Part shown: positions 2,627 to 23,066 of the stretch, piece by piece | Position numbering within the stretch: the stretch's first letter is position 1 | Layout: each line of letters begins with the position of its first letter | Virus record (IMG/VR): IMGVR_UViG_3300031565_000400 | Location: 1-23,066 of that record | Source: a virus | Length of the DNA stretch: 23,066 nt | Direction: 5' to 3' (one strand) | Program-made: the position numbers and the translations under genes | The notes under the pieces: model-generated | What the model was told of the DNA's origin: nothing | What the model saw: the letters and a program-made list of their open reading frames with translations, nothing else | Databases searched by the model: none

Positions 2627-3973
2627 TTAAATTTTCTCGCCAGCTTTGAAGCCACGAAATGCTTTGAAACGCGGGAATCGGATACTGTGGTAATCATTCC
2701 CGTCACTCTTACTAAGGGCATCGCCGCGCACTTCCGCGACCATGCCGATAAGCTTTTTCTGTGCTGCTGGCGCAAACCATTCCTCACGTTGTTTGTCGCT
2801 GTAACCACTGCCGACACTAACGCGGATCTTGACTCCGTCATCGACGCCTTCGCAAAGCAGGGCACCCATTTTACCGACATTTTTCGTACCGGCCTTGCCC
2901 TCTTCAACTTTGATTACTTTGAGGCTAACTTCGATAAACGGTTTCAGCTTTAACCAATCTACCGAACGTTTGCAGCGATACGGTGCGTCGAGGTTTTTAA
3001 TCATAATACCCTCGTACCCACCTTTAATTGCTTTGTTGTTGATCTCGGTAAATTTCTTTTGGCCTGCAGCCGTGTCCAAATCTACAATGTCATGTTCCAG
3101 TATGCGAACATTGTCACCGATTGCTAATTGAACAAAAATATGTGAATGCCATTTTTTTAGCGCCGCAGTACGATCAACCTGCTTGACCTTACTGGAGCCG
3201 GCTGTAAATTCTTTCACGGTTACCATATCAAACAAATACAGAACCGCATCCTTAGCATTGACATTAGATTTGCGATTAATTTGCGTCATCAAATCCTGGA
3301 ACGTCGCGCTCATAATTTCACCATCAAGCACCATCGGTTCTTTGAATTGTTTAATACTCTTGCTAATCTGTTCCTTGATATGTCCGAAATTATGTAGTTC
3401 TTTTCCGTTCCGGCTATACTGGATAACCTCACCAGTTGCAGGGTACACAAAAGTTAGGACGCGCACACCGTCCAGTTTGGTTTCGATCATTTTTTTACCA
3501 CTAACCTTACCTTCGTGATTTTTGCTGTCATGTGCAAGTTGGGCCTCAAACACGGGAACACCATACTCCTTCATTTTGCCCATCGCCTTAGCCATTTTGT
3601 TTACCGTGCGCTCACTCATACCACAGCGTAGGTCTTTAATAAGGATGCGTCGGTACCAGCCGTTCCATTGTTCGTTTGTAGCCAACCTCATGGCAGTATC
3701 AATCTCTGCCAAAGCAGCGTGTCCGGTAGCTTTTCTTTGGGAAAGGCGATCTGCTAAAATTTCAAACGTCGGCACAGTAAGACCAATGCCATCCTGTCCT
3801 TTGCGAACCGGAACCTTTTTAACACCGAATGTAACCATTGCATCATACGCAAGGCGCACACCGGCAAAAAATTCTTTGTTGTCTGCTTTGATTTCGCGGG
3901 TGACGATGGCTTGTTTTGCAAGCTTACTATTGTCAGCTTCGAGGTCCGCAATTACTTTCCACGGTTTATTCAT
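2627..3973 (-). CDS. ATP-dependent DNA ligase (T4/T7-type)
   Basis: 448 residues. The adenylation lysine K166 is in ETKLDGVRV (motif I, KxDG). The other motifs follow in order: SRNG (187-190), LDGEI (216-220), LFDMV (248-), EGIMIK (321-326) and WLKLK (340-344). The C-terminus fits an OB domain with GSGYSDKQR and a closing RFPRF. Residues 1-140 resemble the helical DNA-binding domain of T4 ligase. It seals nicks in DNA during replication and repair using ATP. All catalytic motifs are intact. Its GC content is visibly higher than that of neighbouring genes. It has its own promoter (4009-4037) and a TAGGAG ribosome site, and heads the operon running toward 1338. Confidence 0.95.
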   Translation of the reverse strand: MNKPWKVIADLEADNSKLAKQAIVTREIKADNKEFFAGVRLAYDAMVTFGVKKVPVRKGQDGIGLTVPTFEILADRLSQRKATGHAALAEIDTAMRLATNEQWNGWYRRILIKDLRCGMSERTVNKMAKAMGKMKEYGVPVFEAQLAHDSKNHEGKVSGKKMIETKLDGVRVLTFVYPATGEVIQYSRNGKELHNFGHIKEQISKSIKQFKEPMVLDGEIMSATFQDLMTQINRKSNVNAKDAVLYLFDMVTVKEFTAGSSKVKQVDRTAALKKWHSHIFVQLAIGDNVRILEHDIVDLDTAAGQKKFTEINNKAIKGGYEGIMIKNLDAPYRCKRSVDWLKLKPFIEVSLKVIKVEEGKAGTKNVGKMGALLCEGVDDGVKIRVSVGSGYSDKQREEWFAPAAQKKLIGMVAEVRGDALSKSDGNDYHSIRFPRFKAFRGFKAGEKI

Positions 3974-4332: not shown

Positions 4333-4592
4333 TTGCCTAGAAACTCCATTAATCTACTTTCAGCTTCTTTCCATTCTATCCTAGCCTGGTGCTCATCGCC
4401 ACCAATGCCTTCTGTATACAGAAAATAGATATGTTCCTTAGCTGAACATTCCCATTCTAATGCAGAACGTTGAGATTCTAATGCAGTGCGCTGAACAACA
4501 GTAAGGGTTTCCTTTAACCCATCGATTGTTTTTAGCTGCTTTTTTATTTGTGTTTCTAATTTCTTTATTGTAGCTTTATCGGAGGTTGTCAT
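4329..4592 (-). CDS. Small coiled-coil protein
   Basis: 87 residues from the chosen ATG at 4592, which has AGAGG 7 bp upstream. An in-frame ATG at 4643 was rejected because it lies within the tmRNA terminator hairpin. Residues 5-40 (for example ATIKKLETQIKKQLKTIDGL) form a coiled coil; the C-terminal half is acidic and helical and ends SRLMEFLGK. It is the first gene after the terminator and may depend on read-through. Function unknown. Confidence 0.65.
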   Translation of the reverse strand: MTTSDKATIKKLETQIKKQLKTIDGLKETLTVVQRTALESQRSALEWECSAKEHIYFLYTEGIGGDEHQARIEWKEAESRLMEFLGK

Positions 4593-4609
4593 TTTTAGCC
4601 TCTTAGTTG

Positions 4610-4648
4610 AAAAAACCCTAGTTGTTTTGTTAACAAGGCACAACTAGG
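4610..4648 (-). terminator. Terminator of the tmRNA operon
   Basis: Minus strand CCTAGTTGT, a 14-nt loop region holding the self-complementary TTGTTAACAA, then ACAACTAGG and GTTTTTT. The 9 bp outer stem is perfect. It lies just past the tmRNA coding piece. Confidence 0.85.
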
Positions 4649-4846
4649 AAATCCCCGGGTAATGGTTTTTAAGCCAACTCTGCTTCGGCAGTAACGAAAC
4701 TGGAGAGTTTAATTCCTTTTCCGCTAACTACGAAAGTACCATTTTTTGTAAATTTGTCATTTACAGTTTTTGCTCTGCTTACGGCAGTCGCCTATCGTGC
4801 TGTCCATTCAGTTACTCATTTGCCCTGTCGAAACCTTGTCATCCCC
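4649..4846 (-). other. ssrA: tmRNA coding piece
   Basis: Starts with GGGGATGACAAGGTTTCGAC, which matches the acceptor strand and D-loop of tmRNA 5' ends. Helix 2 and a small hairpin (CTGC, loop CGTAA, GCAG) follow before the tag frame. The piece probably ends between the tag stop (4669) and the terminator stem (4648). Confidence 0.85.
4669..4764 (-). other. ssrA: tmRNA-encoded proteolysis tag frame
   Basis: The most likely resume codon is GTA at 4762-4764. An A lies four bases upstream, as in E. coli, and VNDKF then aligns with the usual ANDNF-like tag start. The tag has 31 codons: VNDKFTKNGTFVVSG, then KGIKLSSFV, then TAEAELA and TAA. A GCA three codons earlier (4771-4773) is an alternative resume codon. 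The tag is long and ends ELA rather than the usual LAA or VAA. Confidence 0.7.
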
Positions 4847-4981
4847 ATCAGAAGAGCACTTACTAACTAAGTCAAATAGTTCGGCGCAAATATCTAAGCC
4901 ATAATATTCATCTAGCTTAAACATATCATAATTTCTAGAAAACCATTTATTTACCGCAACTATCTTTTCCGTATCTGTCAT
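4808..4981 (-). CDS. Possible 57-residue protein nested in the tmRNA intervening segment
   Basis: ATG at 4981 begins 12 bp after the CCA end of the acceptor piece. The frame runs through the whole spacer and ends with TGA at 4808, inside the coding piece. It reads MTDTEKIVAVNKWFSRNYDM, then FKLDEYYGLDICAELFDLVS, then a short acidic tail. Composition is protein-like, and AELFDLV recalls the LFDLLK/FDILK tails of neighbouring small proteins. No Shine-Dalgarno sequence is visible, and RNA processing of the tmRNA would cut the message. It may be real, a remnant, or chance. Confidence 0.4.
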   Translation of the reverse strand: MTDTEKIVAVNKWFSRNYDMFKLDEYYGLDICAELFDLVSKCSSDGDDKVSTGQMSN

Positions 4982-4992
4982 AAATGCTTTTT

Positions 4993-5061
4993 TGGTGGAG
5001 ATGGCGGGAGTCGAACCCGCGTCCAGAACACCTTTTACCTCACTTCATACAGCAATAGTAA
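4993..5061 (-). other. ssrA: tmRNA acceptor piece
   Basis: Holds the 3' strand of helix 2 (5024-5030), the T arm with stem GCGGG/CCCGC and loop TTCGACT (5004-5020), the acceptor strand CATCTCC and encoded ACCA ending at 4993. The 5' limit is bounded by the preceding stop codon at 5062 and is otherwise not determined. Confidence 0.85.
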
Positions 5062-5388
5062 TTATTTAGCTTTCCGTCTTTCCTCAAGCCCAATATCATG
5101 CCAAATTTTAATGAAAGTCCAACCTATAAACATAAGAGCTAATATACCGAGTAATAATCCGGCGCTAAAAAATGATAACAAAATGCTCATCATAACAACT
5201 GGAACTAATCCAACCGGATCATTGAGAAACCAAAAGAACATAAAAATGAAAGATACAGCATAACACAACCAATATACTAACCAATGATTTTGAATTTTTC
5301 CAGTTTTTATTTCGCCAGCAATTTTACGAATAGAATCTAATACAGTAGTTGTGACTCCGACCCAAAGATTTAATAGAAATTCTTTCAT
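5062..5388 (-). CDS. Small membrane protein
   Basis: 108 residues. It starts MKEFLLNLWVGVTTTVLDSI, resembling the amphipathic N-terminus of its upstream neighbours (MKFLKYLILGW, MLEFFKHLWLGF). Two long hydrophobic segments follow, about residues 38-58 and 62-95. It ends with basic residues (LEERRKAK). Last protein gene before the tmRNA and probably in the same transcript. Shares its start base with the stop of the upstream gene. Function unknown. Confidence 0.75.
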   Translation of the reverse strand: MKEFLLNLWVGVTTTVLDSIRKIAGEIKTGKIQNHWLVYWLCYAVSFIFMFFWFLNDPVGLVPVVMMSILLSFFSAGLLLGILALMFIGWTFIKIWHDIGLEERRKAK

Positions 5389-7719: not shown

Positions 7720-8593
7720 TTTTCTTTTTAAGCCAAGTGTGTCCATAACCAGGCATTTCTGCCATTTCAGCAAATGTAATATGAAAACCTGATGCATGTT
7801 TATGCCCACCACCACCGTATGCAACAGCAATCTCAGAAACATCGAGACCGTTTGGGCTAGAACGTAAACTAAATTCTCTATGCTTTGGTGTATCCCAATA
7901 ACATGCTGCATATGGGACACCTTCTTCAGCGGCCATAATATGGCCCGCGTCAGAGGACAATGTATATGGTAATGATGCTACAGGAATATCAAGCCCATCA
8001 ATGTTCATCTCTCGTTGACAAACAGCAAGGAGTTCTTTTACATCTTTAAAATGCTTTCGAATAATTGGTTCGCCTTCAGCAACCAAATCTCCGATCTTAG
8101 ATTTAACAAGTTTATCCCAATTAGCAAATGAATATTCATAGCTAAAAATTGCGGCATTAACTTCTTTTGAATTAATTAATTTATATTGCCATAAGTCTCT
8201 ATCTTGAACATATCCAATTAGAGGTGGTTTACTAAGATCAGTAAAGAACCAGTCCCACGTTAACATTGCGCCGCTGCGTTCAATATCAAAGTATGTCGTT
8301 AACTTCGGATACTGTTCCTTTAAGCCATCTAAATCAGCAATAGCCGACTTGTGATGGTCAATGATGTAGATAGGAATATCTTCCTTCAACAAGGTTTCCA
8401 TTACTGCCCTCTTGTAGCTAAAGTCTACAAGATAAACTTCTTCATATTCTTTAATCTCAGGTGGATCATCTCTGTACACACCTGGAAAGAAATCAAAGGG
8501 TAATCCGCTTTCGATTGAAAATTGCTTTACTACCCAAGCAGCCGTAAATCCATCAATACAGTTGCCATGATAAATGCATAGTCTTTTTTTCAT
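7709..8593 (-). CDS. DHH-superfamily phosphoesterase
   Basis: 294 residues. YHGNCIDGFTAAW (residues 8-20), VDFSYKRA (56-63) and DHHKS (79-83) are the metal-binding DHH motifs; GGGGHKHASGF (260-270) is the DHHA1 substrate-binding motif. Length and order match stand-alone DHH/DHHA1 enzymes, which hydrolyse short oligonucleotides, pAp or cyclic dinucleotides with Mn2+. The substrate cannot be told from sequence. It shares an operon with a cREC-type protein, so degradation of nucleotide signals is a plausible role. Recycling of short RNA would be the alternative. Overlaps the upstream gene by 4 bp. Confidence 0.88.
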   Translation of the reverse strand: MKKRLCIYHGNCIDGFTAAWVVKQFSIESGLPFDFFPGVYRDDPPEIKEYEEVYLVDFSYKRAVMETLLKEDIPIYIIDHHKSAIADLDGLKEQYPKLTTYFDIERSGAMLTWDWFFTDLSKPPLIGYVQDRDLWQYKLINSKEVNAAIFSYEYSFANWDKLVKSKIGDLVAEGEPIIRKHFKDVKELLAVCQREMNIDGLDIPVASLPYTLSSDAGHIMAAEEGVPYAACYWDTPKHREFSLRSSPNGLDVSEIAVAYGGGGHKHASGFHITFAEMAEMPGYGHTWLKKKSAT

Positions 8594-8815: not shown

Positions 8816-9028
8816 CTATCTCTTTTTGTATCGAGCTTCTAGAATCTGTTTTAACAAACCATCATAATCTACATCATGTTTTGTTAGATTATGACGTTCG
8901 AGTATCTCATTTAATGCTGCATGTGGGAACATTCCCATGCCAACATTCGGATAAGCATCGTCGTATTCTAACCTACCAAGGGCTAATTCCACGATTGGTA
9001 CTGGCACTGTTATTACTTTCTTTTTCAC
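8816..9028 (-). CDS. Small hypothetical protein
   Basis: 70 residues, no membrane segment. It begins MKKKVITVPVPIVELALGRL and ends in a helical stretch (YDGLLKQILEARYKKR). Overlaps the upstream cREC-type gene by 4 bp. Family not recognised. Confidence 0.65.
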   Translation of the reverse strand: MKKKVITVPVPIVELALGRLEYDDAYPNVGMGMFPHAALNEILERHNLTKHDVDYDGLLKQILEARYKKR

Positions 9029-9348
9029 GTTAATCCCTGTTGCTTGAGATCTAAATATTGACGTAAATATTTTTCAATGTTTTCACCACCGATAATGTTT
9101 GCTGAATGAACTTTAAAATCAAAATCTTTTGGCAAATATTTCCCATTGCTTGATAGGTCTAAACCAACAAGATATACTGCAAAATCTTGACCACTCGGTC
9201 CATCACCTAAATCATGATCGAATGAGATGAAGTTAGGGCCCTCAGGATGATCTAACAACCATCCTACGCCCTCATCAAATGATCGAACAACAATCCAATC
9301 ATAATCCGGCGGCATGCGTTCGTCGTCTAAAAATAGTTTGGACATCAT
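9025..9348 (-). CDS. Cyclic-phosphate-processing receiver domain protein (cREC-like)
   Basis: 107 residues. LFLDDERMP (residues 5-13), ISFDHDLGDG (41-50) and KVHSANIIGGENI (79-91) are the three conserved blocks of the cREC_REC family, a receiver-like fold predicted to process cyclic nucleotide phosphates. The acidic triplet, the D-H-D motif and the H-S-A-N motif are all present. First gene of the operon, with a strong promoter (9354-9382). Its ATG lies 5 bp after the -10 box, with no Shine-Dalgarno sequence (a second ATG lies 8 bp after). Early expression and family suggest anti-defence or RNA-end processing, which is inference. Confidence 0.78.
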   Translation of the reverse strand: MMSKLFLDDERMPPDYDWIVVRSFDEGVGWLLDHPEGPNFISFDHDLGDGPSGQDFAVYLVGLDLSSNGKYLPKDFDFKVHSANIIGGENIEKYLRQYLDLKQQGLT

Positions 9349-9436: not shown

Positions 9437-11755
9437 ATGAAAACCAAAATCAGTCTAGTACAACCAAATTTTCAGCAAGGCCCGAAAGAATTAAATAGTT
9501 ATTACCTTCCATACAGCGTGGGAGTAATTTGGTCTTATGCTGCTAAATTTGAAGAGATAACAAATCAATTTGAATTGGATGTTTTAATATGGCAGCGAGA
9601 AGATTTAGATGAAACTGCTGAACGACTTGCAACTTCAGACATTGTTGGATTTAGCACTTACATATGGAATAGAAATTATAATTATGCTTTGGCGAAAAGA
9701 ATAAAAGAAAAGAATCCAGATTGTTTAATTATCCTAGGAGGTCCAGAACCTCCAATTACCAAGTTGGATATGTTTGAACACTTACCCTTTGTTGATCTAG
9801 TAGTTAAACAAGAAGGTGAGATTACATTTAAACGCATACTAGATCATTACAAAACAAAAGATTTTGAAAATATCTCAGGACTTGTTATCAACAAAAATTT
9901 AGAAGCAGTTGATACTGGTATGCCTGAACGTATAAGTGAATTAGCAGAACTTCCTAGTCCTTATACTACAGGGGTTTTTGATAAATTGGTTGCAGAGAAT
10001 CCTATTATAGAATGGAATGCTACATTAGAAACGAATAGGGGTTGTCCATTTCAATGTTTTACAGGAAATACAAAAATTATTACATCAAATTGTCCAAACA
10101 AAAAAGCAAAAAATATCCAAATTGGTGATAAACTAATTGGATTTGATGAAGAAACAAAAAAGCTTGTTGAAACTGAAGTTTTCCAAACAGTTAAATATGA
10201 TACTGATGAAATTTATATAATTAACTTTCAAGATGGTACGATTATCGAAACTACCGAAGAACATCCATTTTACGTGAATGGAGAATGGAAAGAAACTAAA
10301 AATCTTTGTATTGGTGATGAAATTTATGATATTACATATAATGGTAAGAAAATTATTTCTATTGCTATAGAAAAACGACAAGAATCAGTTTATAATTTCG
10401 AATGTTCCCCACATAAGAATTTTTTTGCAGAATATTTATTAAGTCATAATTGTACGTTCTGTGATTGGGGATCACTCACATACAGTAAAGTTAAGAAGTT
10501 TGGACTAGAAAAAATCAATGAAGAACTAGAATGGATCGGTAAGAATAAATGTGGTTTTGTTAGCATTGCTGATGCAAACTTTGGCATGTTTGTTGAGAGG
10601 GATAATTTAATTTCCGATAAGATTATTGAAGTAAAAGGCAAATATGGTTTCCCGTATACCTTCGGTGTTAATTGGGCAAAGAATCAGAAAAATGAAGTAG
10701 TCGATCTAGTAAAGAAGATTAGTAAAGCTAAATTGTTTGCGCCGGGATTAACAGTTAGTGTTCAAAGTATGGACGAAGGTGTATTAGAAAATATTAAACG
10801 TAAGAACTTAGGTATTAACAAAATCGAATCTATCTTCCAATTATGTGACTTAGCTGCAATACCTGTAGTTACAGAGCTTATCCTAGGATTACCAGGTGAG
10901 ACATTAGATACATGGCGCAATAACTTTTGGCGCTTGTTTGATGCTGGAAATCATACAGGAGTAGAAATATTTCAAGCTCAACTATTAGAGAATGCTGAGA
11001 TGAATTTGCTGCAACGTAAACTATACAAACTAAAATCTACCACAGTTTACGATTACATGAGTGGAAGTTATAACGAAGATGAAATAGCTGAGGGCGTTGA
11101 TGCAGTTATTAGCACAAGCACATTATCACTCGACAAGATGGTGGAATGCCAGGTCTTTAGTTGGTTTATTAATACATTTCACATACAAGGCCTAAGTACT
11201 TACTTAGCTAGATTTACTACAAAATATGCCAATATATCATACAAGGAATTTTATCAAACATTGTTTGACATGTTGAACGAAGATCCGTGGTTTAGAAAAG
11301 AACGAGAAACTATAGAACACTATTACAGAAAATGGATGGACGGTGGAAGAATCGATCATCCACCCATTGGTGGAATTTCTATACATGGATGGAATTTAAT
11401 ACATCGCACATTGCTTAATATACATGCTAATAATGAATATGATGTTGTATTCGGCAAACTTAAAACATTTATCTCAACTATTATTAAGGATGAGAAATTA
11501 GCAGCAGAGCTAATCGAATTCCAAGCTAGCCATATTGTGCATTATCCAATGATTAAAGAATATCCGCTTGAGAAAGAATTTACACACGATATACTAGGTT
11601 ATATACAAGATGATTCTCCAAACCTGCATAATCCTGCAAAATATGCATTCGTTTTCCCTGAGGAGAATAATATCTCATTAGCTAAGTTTTTAGAACTAAT
11701 TTATTTCGGTAGGCGCAGAGGATTCGGGAAAACTAGAATCACCAAATCTAAATAA
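9437..11755 (+). CDS. B12-binding-domain radical SAM enzyme interrupted by an intein
   Basis: 772 codons; 640 residues after removal of the intein (residues 207-338). Residues 5-150 form a B12-binding-like domain (LPYSVGVIWSYAA, DIVGFSTYIWN, IILGGPEPP, VVKQEGEIT). The [4Fe-4S] motif CxxxCxxC exists only after splicing: GCPFQ joins CTFCDWGS. Radical SAM strands follow, including SIADANFG and LILGLPGETLDTW. The C-terminal 250 residues resemble other large B12/radical SAM proteins but show no motif I can name. The enzyme should cleave S-adenosylmethionine and perhaps methylate or rearrange a substrate; which one is unknown. It starts the plus-strand late block. Confidence 0.92.
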   Translation: MKTKISLVQPNFQQGPKELNSYYLPYSVGVIWSYAAKFEEITNQFELDVLIWQREDLDETAERLATSDIVGFSTYIWNRNYNYALAKRIKEKNPDCLIILGGPEPPITKLDMFEHLPFVDLVVKQEGEITFKRILDHYKTKDFENISGLVINKNLEAVDTGMPERISELAELPSPYTTGVFDKLVAENPIIEWNATLETNRGCPFQCFTGNTKIITSNCPNKKAKNIQIGDKLIGFDEETKKLVETEVFQTVKYDTDEIYIINFQDGTIIETTEEHPFYVNGEWKETKNLCIGDEIYDITYNGKKIISIAIEKRQESVYNFECSPHKNFFAEYLLSHNCTFCDWGSLTYSKVKKFGLEKINEELEWIGKNKCGFVSIADANFGMFVERDNLISDKIIEVKGKYGFPYTFGVNWAKNQKNEVVDLVKKISKAKLFAPGLTVSVQSMDEGVLENIKRKNLGINKIESIFQLCDLAAIPVVTELILGLPGETLDTWRNNFWRLFDAGNHTGVEIFQAQLLENAEMNLLQRKLYKLKSTTVYDYMSGSYNEDEIAEGVDAVISTSTLSLDKMVECQVFSWFINTFHIQGLSTYLARFTTKYANISYKEFYQTLFDMLNEDPWFRKERETIEHYYRKWMDGGRIDHPPIGGISIHGWNLIHRTLLNIHANNEYDVVFGKLKTFISTIIKDEKLAAELIEFQASHIVHYPMIKEYPLEKEFTHDILGYIQDDSPNLHNPAKYAFVFPEENNISLAKFLELIYFGRRRGFGKTRITKSK
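10055..10450 (+). other. 132-residue mini-intein in the radical SAM gene
   Basis: Starts with Cys1 in CFTGNTKIIT (block A), has TTEEHPFYV (block B, T67 and H70), then VYNFECSPHKNFFAEYLLSHN (split: VYNFECSPHK, NFFAEYLLSHN; blocks F and G), ending His131-Asn132, with Cys as the first extein residue. All splicing residues are present. There is no homing-endonuclease domain. The insert is clearly more AT-rich than the flanking extein, suggesting later acquisition. It separates the first from the second cluster cysteine. Confidence 0.93.
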
Positions 11756-12446: not shown

Positions 12447-12805
12447 GGTTAAAAGAAATTCTTTCTGAAATGGTTCACATTCCTGCAGGTCCGGGTGGAA
12501 GGGCAACGGTTCCTGCTCCAGCAGTTTTATATCATTCTTTAAGAGGACGTCCTGCAACCGATGCTGGTATTAAAGCTCTTCCATTATCTCCCAAAGAACA
12601 TGAATTGGCTTTTATGTTTCCATCGGAGAAACGACAGAATGGTTTTATTTGGTTAAGTATGGGTGCATTATCCAACGATGCTTATCAAATTGATGCGCAC
12701 AAATTAGATTCTACTAATTTACGATTTACAGGACAAAGCGAAGGATACTTATTACATGCAGGAGATATTCCTGCAGAAGCAATTATTAAGCGGCTTGCTT
12801 ATTAG
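12443..12805 (+). CDS. Small ADP-ribosyltransferase-like protein with putative capsid-targeting leader
   Basis: 120 residues. Leader MRLKEILSE is almost identical to that of the upstream protein and ends in L-S-E. The body has LYHSLRG (29-35), GFIWLSMGA (67-75), QIDAHKLD and GYLLHAGDIPAEAI near the end. This order (YH, W-L-S, valine/isoleucine-D-x-x-x-L, G-D-I-P-x-x-I) resembles small ART-fold domains that use NAD. The match is by pattern only, so confidence in function is moderate. Coupled to the nucleotidyltransferase by an ATGA overlap; its end overlaps the convergent kinase gene by 20 bp. Confidence 0.6.
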   Translation: MRLKEILSEMVHIPAGPGGRATVPAPAVLYHSLRGRPATDAGIKALPLSPKEHELAFMFPSEKRQNGFIWLSMGALSNDAYQIDAHKLDSTNLRFTGQSEGYLLHAGDIPAEAIIKRLAY

Positions 12806-13448
12806 CCCTATTAGCTAATTCGTTTTGAATCCATTCTGTTGCAGCTGGTTGAGTCGGCTTTTTATTTAGGAATTGTTCTAAACGCTTTGAAATAATTTGT
12901 ATGTCAGCATCAGGCTGTGAATTATCAACAATAAAGAAATTACCACTAAATGCATTTTGCAAATGTCCAAGATTATCTTGAGTTGTTTTCCAATTTTGCT
13001 CTACTCTATCTAACGGAACAGAGCGCCCTATTTGTTTTGCTCTAGCTAAGACTCGTTGAGTTGCGGTTTCTAAATCAGTATTAACAAATATCATAGCAAC
13101 ATCGTATCCGATTTGTTCAAGCACTTGTTTTGTTTTTTGTATGCGTCGAAGATCTTTTGCAGTACCATCAATTACCATACCCAATCTACCGTAGATATAG
13201 TTTTTTCGCTGCTTCATTAATTTATGCCAATAATAGTCATAATCTTTCGATCTATCTTGTTTAAGCATATTGAAGAATTCCCACCACTTATCAATATCTA
13301 CTTCTTTAAGACCAGTGTGGGCTAACAGTTTTTTTCTAATTGTAGTTTTGCCGGCACCAGGTGCCCCAGCCATAAAAATAGCTTTAAAAATATGAGGATC
13401 GTGTACACCTTCTTCTATTTGTTCTTCTTTTAGGTCTGAATAGCGCAT
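12786..13448 (-). CDS. P-loop kinase (zeta-toxin-like) with putative capsid-targeting leader
   Basis: 220 residues. The Walker A motif GAPGAGKTT (28-36) follows a hydrophobic strand. DIDKWWEFF and MVIDGTAKD match the substrate and Walker B regions of zeta-toxin/AAA_33-type kinases. The segment GVHDPHIFKA just before the P-loop is one I associate with kinases of T4-like aquatic phages. The leader MRYSDLKEEQIEE ends in I-E-E before G, a possible prohead-protease site. Such kinases phosphorylate nucleotide sugars, RNA ends or small molecules; the substrate is not visible. It is on the opposite strand to its neighbours but carries the same type of late box. Confidence 0.8.
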   Translation of the reverse strand: MRYSDLKEEQIEEGVHDPHIFKAIFMAGAPGAGKTTIRKKLLAHTGLKEVDIDKWWEFFNMLKQDRSKDYDYYWHKLMKQRKNYIYGRLGMVIDGTAKDLRRIQKTKQVLEQIGYDVAMIFVNTDLETATQRVLARAKQIGRSVPLDRVEQNWKTTQDNLGHLQNAFSGNFFIVDNSQPDADIQIISKRLEQFLNKKPTQPAATEWIQNELANRANKQAA

Positions 13449-21195: not shown

Positions 21196-21510
21196 CTAGT
21201 ATTGGTTCAGTTCAGGTTTCAGTTCCGCGATCAGCTTGCGTTCTTCGCCGTGCGCTGCAATACGTCCGCGCACTTTGCCGATCAATTCCATCACAAACGC
21301 CTCGGCACCATATTTGCGGATGCTGCGGCAAAATGCCCAATGACGTCCTTCAGTGACTGCGCGACGAACATGTTTCTGCCAGCGCACTTTGAGGGTTTTC
21401 TTCACGCCACCTTTAAGCACGGTGATACCGATATAACGCTCACCGGTTTCACAATTAGCAATCATGTAAATTGCGTGGTTGCGATCATTGCGTACTTTGC
21501 GTTTCACCAT
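21196..21510 (-). CDS. GIY-YIG nuclease, probably stand-alone homing-type
   Basis: 104 residues from ATG 21510. AIYMIANCETGERYIGIT (13-30) is the GIY-YIG pair; KVRWQKHVRRA supplies the arginine R43; GEERKLIAELKPELNQY gives the catalytic glutamate. All key residues are present. It cuts DNA and may be mobile or serve in recombination. The start is 6 bp after the -10 box with no Shine-Dalgarno sequence. First gene of the operon that continues toward 20 kb. Confidence 0.85.
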   Translation of the reverse strand: MVKRKVRNDRNHAIYMIANCETGERYIGITVLKGGVKKTLKVRWQKHVRRAVTEGRHWAFCRSIRKYGAEAFVMELIGKVRGRIAAHGEERKLIAELKPELNQY

Positions 21511-21516
21511 ACATAC

Positions 21517-21545
21517 ATTATACGTTGATCTACCCAAAAATGCAA
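21517..21545 (-). promoter_or_regulatory. Sigma70-like promoter of the GIY-YIG gene
   Basis: Minus strand TTGCAT (21540-21545), 17 bp spacer, perfect TATAAT (21517-21522), then 6 bp to the ATG. Confidence 0.75.
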
Positions 21546-21555
21546 CCAAAACAAG

Positions 21556-22198: not shown

Positions 22199-23066
22199 CT
22201 ATTGCAGTTGGATTTTCTTGACCAGGCCAGCTGAGAAATAATTTTCATACTTATCATATACTTGCTCAGTCATTTGCTTAAATTTCTCAATTTCAGCCTC
22301 AGGAAGATCTACAACGTCAATGTCATCCTTAGCGCAACGTGCTTGAACTAATTCGATATCTTCCAAACTAATTGCACGTTCGTACCTTGCAGCATTTTCT
22401 GCGGCTGTTTGGATTTTATCTTGCGTGTCTTTATTTAGGCTATCCCAAAATTCAGTGTTAACAATAATTGAGGTTAGGAATAAACTATGCTTGGTGTCGT
22501 TAATAAATCCACAGGCTTCATTCTGCTTTAGTGCATAGAAACGTGGGTAAGTACTTTCACCACCTTCAATTTCACCATCCTTGACAGCATTGGTAATCGC
22601 TTCTAATTCCATTACTACTGGATCTGCTCCGATTGCTTTGAGAATATCTATAGCGACTGGACTTCTATTAGAACGTACTTTTAGTCCTTTGAAATCATCC
22701 ATGTTATTAATTTGTTTAGTGGCCGGAATCATTCTATATCCACCACTGTAAGTAAATGCTAATCCTTTTACATTACTATCTGTTCCGAGACCGTTAAGTA
22801 ATCCCTTACCAATTTCTCCGTCAAGGACTCTTGCTGCATGTTCGTGATCCTTAAATAAGAATGGAAGATCTAATACATGCATGTCCTTCGAATATCTTTC
22901 TCCCAACCAAACGGTGTACATTTGGCTCATTTCAATATCGCCCGATTCCATTAAATCTAATAGATCGTGTTTTGTAATTTTCTTTCCACCGTGGTATTTG
23001 TTGCCGTATTCGCTCAATGTCATAATTTCAAATTCCATTAAGCCTGGCATTGTAACGCTCAACTCT
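22199..23066 (-). CDS. TRAP transporter solute-binding protein (DctP-like), N-terminus outside window
   Basis: At least 288 residues; the frame is open to the window edge, and by family length about 20-40 N-terminal residues, including any signal peptide, are missing. GDIEMSQMYTVWLGE, LPFLFKDHEHAARVL and NMDDFKGLKVRSNRSPVAID, then GADPVVMELEAITNAVKDGE and IEGGESTYPRFYAL, are the conserved DctP blocks. Family members bind carboxylic acids in the periplasm and deliver them to a TRAP membrane pair. No membrane subunits are visible here, so it would work with host subunits or change uptake during infection. Followed within 63 bp by the HAD gene. Confidence 0.88.
   Translation of the reverse strand, partial: ELSVTMPGLMEFEIMTLSEYGNKYHGGKKITKHDLLDLMESGDIEMSQMYTVWLGERYSKDMHVLDLPFLFKDHEHAARVLDGEIGKGLLNGLGTDSNVKGLAFTYSGGYRMIPATKQINNMDDFKGLKVRSNRSPVAIDILKAIGADPVVMELEAITNAVKDGEIEGGESTYPRFYALKQNEACGFINDTKHSLFLTSIIVNTEFWDSLNKDTQDKIQTAAENAARYERAISLEDIELVQARCAKDDIDVVDLPEAEIEKFKQMTEQVYDKYENYFSAGLVKKIQLQ

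Follow-up and report, generated by a model that had tools for sequence, protein, structure and literature searches.

The gene for a B12-dependent radical SAM enzyme on a virus contig was found to be interrupted by a 132-residue mini-intein, which is inserted exactly in front of the second cysteine of the iron-sulfur cluster motif CxxxCxxC. This element is, with a probability of about 75%, a cis-splicing, endonuclease-less class 1 mini-intein that either invaded a favoured insertion point in a phage enzyme or was inherited there. Its anatomy, its exact site, its sporadic distribution in the gene family and the repeated use of the site by several intein lineages were observed directly, and the location of the insert at the motif is not due to chance. 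Splicing of the window intein, in turn, is predicted from its sequence.

The intein and its host gene

The window, which is the whole stretch of DNA analysed here, comprises 23,066 bases of one virus contig (IMG/VR record IMGVR_UViG_3300031565_000400). The ORF at 9437-11755 (+) encodes a precursor of 772 amino acids, or 640 amino acids once spliced, and was identified by Pfam, NCBIfam and a PDB profile search as an intein-interrupted gene for a B12-binding/radical SAM enzyme resembling KedN5 and TokK. Pfam detected both the B12-binding and the Radical_SAM domains, and together with the CxxxCxxC motif that is formed after splicing they assign the product to the B12-dependent radical SAM enzymes. 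The nearest NCBIfam family was that of the KedN5 B12 radical SAM methyltransferases (NF033712), with a score of 216.5 bits that lies under the family cut-off of 700, and a PDB search with the family profile A1 retrieved TokK (7kdx, E = 2.8e-105) and also CysS. The insert-free protein sequence around the motif is ETNRGCPFQCTFCDWGS, and both extein halves are complete and show no decay. The TokK/KedN5-like phage family to which the gene belongs (window 9437-11755 and L002-L091) was represented by at least 242 stretches in viral contigs, and cellular relatives of the enzyme were found at 46 loci, many of them in Alphaproteobacteria and Nitrosopumilales.

Several neighbouring features of the window were recorded, all on the minus strand. 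A cyclic-phosphate processing receiver domain (cREC_REC, 7e-19; 9025-9348) lies immediately upstream of the radical SAM gene on the opposite strand, and a Zeta-toxin/AAA_33-like kinase (12786-13448) is also near it. A GIY-YIG nuclease match at 21196-21549, weak and below the cut-off, may represent a free-standing homing endonuclease. The TRAP-transporter solute-binding protein DctP at the end of the record (22199-23062, E = 5e-49) could be a metabolic gene or mark a host boundary. An ARAGORN call of a tmRNA with a 31-residue tag (4578-5085) overlaps ORFs and is probably spurious.

The intein occupies 10055-10450 (+), corresponding to precursor residues 207-338, and is a Hint/intein domain. It begins with the catalytic Cys1 (protein residue 207, codon TGT, 10055-10057), contains block B as T67-E-E-H70 (TxxH, 10253-10264), and closes with blocks F and G, VYNFECSPHKNFFAEYLLSHN (10388-10450), the last codon of which is that of Asn132 (AAT, 10448-10450). 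The C-terminal junction reads LLSHN|C, in which the penultimate His131 and Asn132 are followed by the +1 Cys. The top Pfam family for the insert was PT-HINT (8.6e-15), followed by Intein_splicing (2.9e-11, 43.8 bits against a cut-off of 35.8), and TIGR01445 scored 31.5 bits against a cut-off of 24.5. The nearest PDB sequence was 2lwy, a bacterial intein-like domain (1e-9), and further PDB matches, among them the gp41-1 intein, were weaker. Only Hint-type families found support in Pfam, and no endonuclease domain was matched within the 132 residues, as is typical of a mini-intein. Cys1 with TxxH, the C-terminal His-Asn with a +1 Cys, and the precise in-frame insertion are those of a class 1 intein; the exception is block F, VYNFECSPHKNFFAEYLL (VYNFEC), which carries Asn at the place of the usual Asp. 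Since the block F residue varies among inteins, this Asn leaves class membership untouched but makes efficient splicing less certain. The G+C content of the insert was 0.275 as compared to about 0.33 around it.

On the N-extein side, the motif part C203-P-F-Q (10043-10054) places the first cluster cysteine, which is invariant in alignments A1 and A2, at intein position -4. On the C-extein side, C339(+1)-T-F-C342(+4) (10451-10462) supplies the second and third cluster cysteines according to sequence and alignment, Cys339 being encoded by TGT at 10451-10453. Joined, the exteins would read ETNRGCPFQ|CTFCDWGS, restoring CxxxCxxC. The motif was unbroken at this point in 89/89 viral and 44/44 cellular relatives translated, many of which had been fetched by a motif pattern that misses interrupted genes. 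It was likewise unbroken in all 28 viral relatives that carry the motif-independent seed STYIWNR, a fairer sample that is a subset of the 89, which indicates that the insertion between the spacer and the second cysteine is exact and rare. The distribution of inteins in the gene family is thus sporadic: none of the 28 seed-selected members was interrupted, and one other member (L138) carried a different intein. The first-pass annotation had placed the mini-intein at 10055-10450 and between the first and second cysteines, with the +1 Cys as second ligand. These boundaries are right to the base, and the comparison with the intein-free relatives bore out the site. The sequence also supports its view that cluster binding has to await splicing, insofar as the +1 Cys would act first as splicing nucleophile and then as second cluster ligand, so that CxxxCxxC should be whole only in the spliced product.

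Other inteins in the CxxxCxxC motif

The second member of the gene family with an intein, L138 on a viral contig, carries a 297-residue HNH intein at the identical site, and was recognised by a pattern of Asn followed by CTFCDWG. Other B12/radical SAM genes also proved to hold inteins at the second-Cys site, as retrieved by a pattern with the intein start right after GCxxx. When viral contigs were searched with sequence of these inteins alone (A4), host sequence being excluded, all 19 full-length relatives of the HNH inteins (L178-L196), complete at both junctions, preceded the second cysteine of CxxxCxxC, and none of the 61 weaker matches lay at a second-Cys radical SAM site. Eleven of the 19 were seeds picked for this site, and five (L181, L182, L186, L187, and L191) were wholly new. 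The host exteins of the 19 fall into about 9-10 groups that are unlinked at 35% identity over 100 residues. L178-L196 form an HNH intein clade specific to the second-Cys site. One and the same host gene contained an intein of 140 residues in L146/L193/L194 vs one of 296 residues with HNH in L148/L178, a pair in which endonuclease loss is visible. Among 196 genomes in the phylum of G004, the pattern for second-Cys-site inteins gave two bare matches that showed no intein, and no member of the HNH clade was found among 151 genomes in the phylum of G002 in a search that had no positive control.

With a search pattern in which the intein begins after GCxxxCxx, inteins before the third cysteine came to light as well. 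Both junctions were present in L160, L165, L166, L167, L169, L171, L173, and L175, and the N junction alone in L168, where the gene is cut. The hosts are Rv2578c-like proteins (L165 and L166, and by motif L167, L169, and L171), B12 types (L160 with its copies, and L173) and QueE (L175 complete, L168 cut). LAGLIDADG_3 endonucleases were found in L160, L165, and L166, and an IscB/HNH-like match in L175. The phage QueE genes with this insertion lie at L175:2163-3602 (+), with a match to an IscB model inside the intein, and L168:2-529 (-). On the 11.5 kb contig L171, a radical SAM gene with a third-Cys intein occurs twice, in opposite orientations (3186-3226 (-) and 8320-8360 (+)), which may be an assembly artefact. 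NF038136 is a curated NCBIfam model of intein-containing Rv2578c family radical SAM proteins. Residue 112 of L166 aligned with position 62 of this model and its Cys1 (residue 126) with position 76, so the described Rv2578c family uses the third-Cys site; Cys1 of the window intein also aligned with position 76. An Rv2578c query aligned across the motif without a gap in relatives on plasmids. Pattern matches L154, L161, L163, L172, and L174 were discarded as noise, and L155 (DNA polymerase III) and L156 contain inteins outside radical SAM genes.

The first-pass annotation knew of no intein described at this site. That holds for the second-Cys site, for which no description was found in the openly readable papers covered here. 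It does not hold for uniqueness in kind: 19 other viral second-Cys loci, several third-Cys loci, NF038136 and the published intein of Pyrococcus abyssi MoaA (PMC10663303, PMC3922620) stand against it. An insertion at the same site is present in viral contigs including L138, but the intein there is a different one. The observation is therefore confirmed and the earlier interpretation partly supported.

The window intein itself appears to have another ancestry than the HNH clade. In phmmer searches, its best matches were a QueE intein (L175, 4e-17; 43% identity over 93 columns) and the UvsW intein of Salmonella phage S16 (2e-14), and the best match in the second-Cys clade reached 4e-8. A tree of 67 rows separated all 17 rows of the second-Cys site from the window intein by a branch (99/89), and the window intein joined L175 and L168 (96/83) and S16 (96/95). 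Forcing it into the second-Cys clade cost 21 log-likelihood units (AU test, p-AU 0.032). The window intein thus groups, with weak resolution, with the QueE and S16 UvsW inteins, and an independent arrival at the second-Cys site is likely rather than proven, given an alignment of 107 columns with long branches. No close relatives of the window intein alone were found in viral contigs. A Streptococcus phage GXN1 match spanning the intein turned out to be a terminase intein and not radical SAM. A Streptomyces plasmid match (H15) covered 91% of the query.

Splicing and its possible control

The proposed course of splicing is as follows. Cys1 would undergo the N-S acyl shift. The N-extein would then be transferred to the +1 Cys, and Asn132 would cyclise with the assistance of His131. 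The exteins would be rejoined as CPFQCTFC, and loading of [4Fe-4S] would be possible only from then on. In the reducing cytoplasm, splicing is most likely constitutive, and we infer that it is unregulated. Inteins require Cys, Ser or Thr at +1. A motif that is very conserved could be recognised by homing endonucleases and would provide the obligatory +1 nucleophile, here Cys; as the motif is also essential, imprecise loss of the intein would kill the enzyme. Conserved functional motifs are indeed favoured by inteins (PMC5050341). The homing endonuclease was presumably lost from the window intein, as in same-site relatives. Taken together, the rule for the +1 residue, the preference for conserved motifs and the sporadic occurrence of the intein mean that its coincidence with a cluster ligand needs no regulatory explanation.

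Redox or metal gating of the window intein is nevertheless possible, if unlikely. In the form proposed by the first-pass annotation, a gate responding to redox state or oxygen, oxidation would join Cys1 in a disulfide with Cys-4, Cys+1, Cys+4, or intein Cys13, Cys85 or Cys117 and stop splicing, and the enzyme would be made only in a reducing cell. There are precedents for such traps: according to PMC10663303 and PMC3922620, a redox trap between Cys-3 and Cys1 was reported in 2011 for the P. abyssi MoaA intein, that is, within the radical SAM superfamily, and the mycobacterial DnaBi1 intein has an internal one between Cys48 and Cys118 (PMC6195587). Seven cysteines are found within the window intein or next to it. 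However, its nearest N-extein cysteine is at -4 and not at -3 as in MoaA, where Cys-3 would fit an insertion before the third cysteine, and the intein is sporadic and not conserved along with the enzyme. Moreover, the flanking cysteines are cluster ligands and hence present in every intein-free homologue, which means that they do not point to selection for a gate. Sequence support for an oxygen switch would amount to the presence of cysteines and nothing beyond, and we regard such a switch as improbable. A related proposal starts from the precursor, in which Cys1 occupies the place of the future second cluster cysteine (C-P-F-Q-C). Since the Hint fold unites both splice junctions, Cys-4, Cys1, Cys+1, and Cys+4 should be close together, and this nest of both nucleophiles and three future ligands might bind Fe, Zn or Fe-S or form disulfides. 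Splicing would then read the metal, cluster or redox state before maturation, and the recurrent use of the motif would partly reflect this; we consider the proposal rather improbable. The different spacing (-4), the flanking cysteines of intein-free homologues and the habit of inteins to settle in conserved motifs make the ordinary mobile element the most likely reading.

The Asn in block F and PT-HINT as the best Pfam match imply that splicing could be slow or conditional. Along with 2lwy as the top PDB match, the same features would suit a bacterial intein-like (Hint) domain that splices poorly or not at all and cleaves the protein, thereby inactivating or modulating the enzyme. Exact in-frame insertion at an invariant cysteine, the +1 Cys, the penultimate His, the Asn and the complete, undecayed exteins argue against such a domain, and the related L175 intein, which has the PT-HINT signature too, is likewise inserted exactly at a radical SAM motif, that of QueE. 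We consider this explanation very improbable.

Should redox or metal gating be real, phage inteins would act as natural switches that control Fe-S enzymes after translation. Without a gate, too, the radical SAM cluster motif takes its place beside the P-loop as an intein insertion hot spot, which spans two positions (the second and third cysteines), several intein lineages, more than one endonuclease type and one HNH clade over about nine divergent host groups. This recurrent use of the motif is more interesting than the window case alone, and the radical SAM inteins provide naturally occurring splice sites rich in Cys for testing conditional splicing.

Relation to known systems

The host enzyme resembles the TokK/KedN5-type B12-dependent radical SAM methyltransferases by profile, a likeness that gives its family, but it is viral and scores below the NF033712 cut-off. 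The HNH inteins of the second-Cys site (L138, L142, L148, and others) share with the window intein the insertion point and a +1 Cys that is the second cluster ligand, and in L138 the host gene belongs to the window's own family. Unlike the window intein, they are mostly 277-327 amino acids long, contain HNH_3, end in VLV[KHS]N and have Cys in block F. Nearest in sequence to the window intein are the phage QueE inteins (L175, which is PT-HINT-like too, and L168) and the S16 UvsW intein; the QueE inteins, however, precede the third cysteine, and UvsW does not belong to the radical SAM enzymes. NF038136 likewise describes an intein in CxxxCxxC, and its N-extein and first ~100 intein positions align with the window protein, but its intein starts before the third cysteine, as judged from L166, its host family is another one, and its viral relatives are of the LAGLIDADG type. 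As described in PMC10663303 and PMC3922620, the intein of P. abyssi MoaA (Callahan et al. 2011) has a radical SAM host, a flanking cysteine near Cys1 and a proposed oxygen or redox control. The window intein differs from it in preceding the second cysteine, in having its cysteine at -4 and in residing in a phage enzyme of the B12 type.
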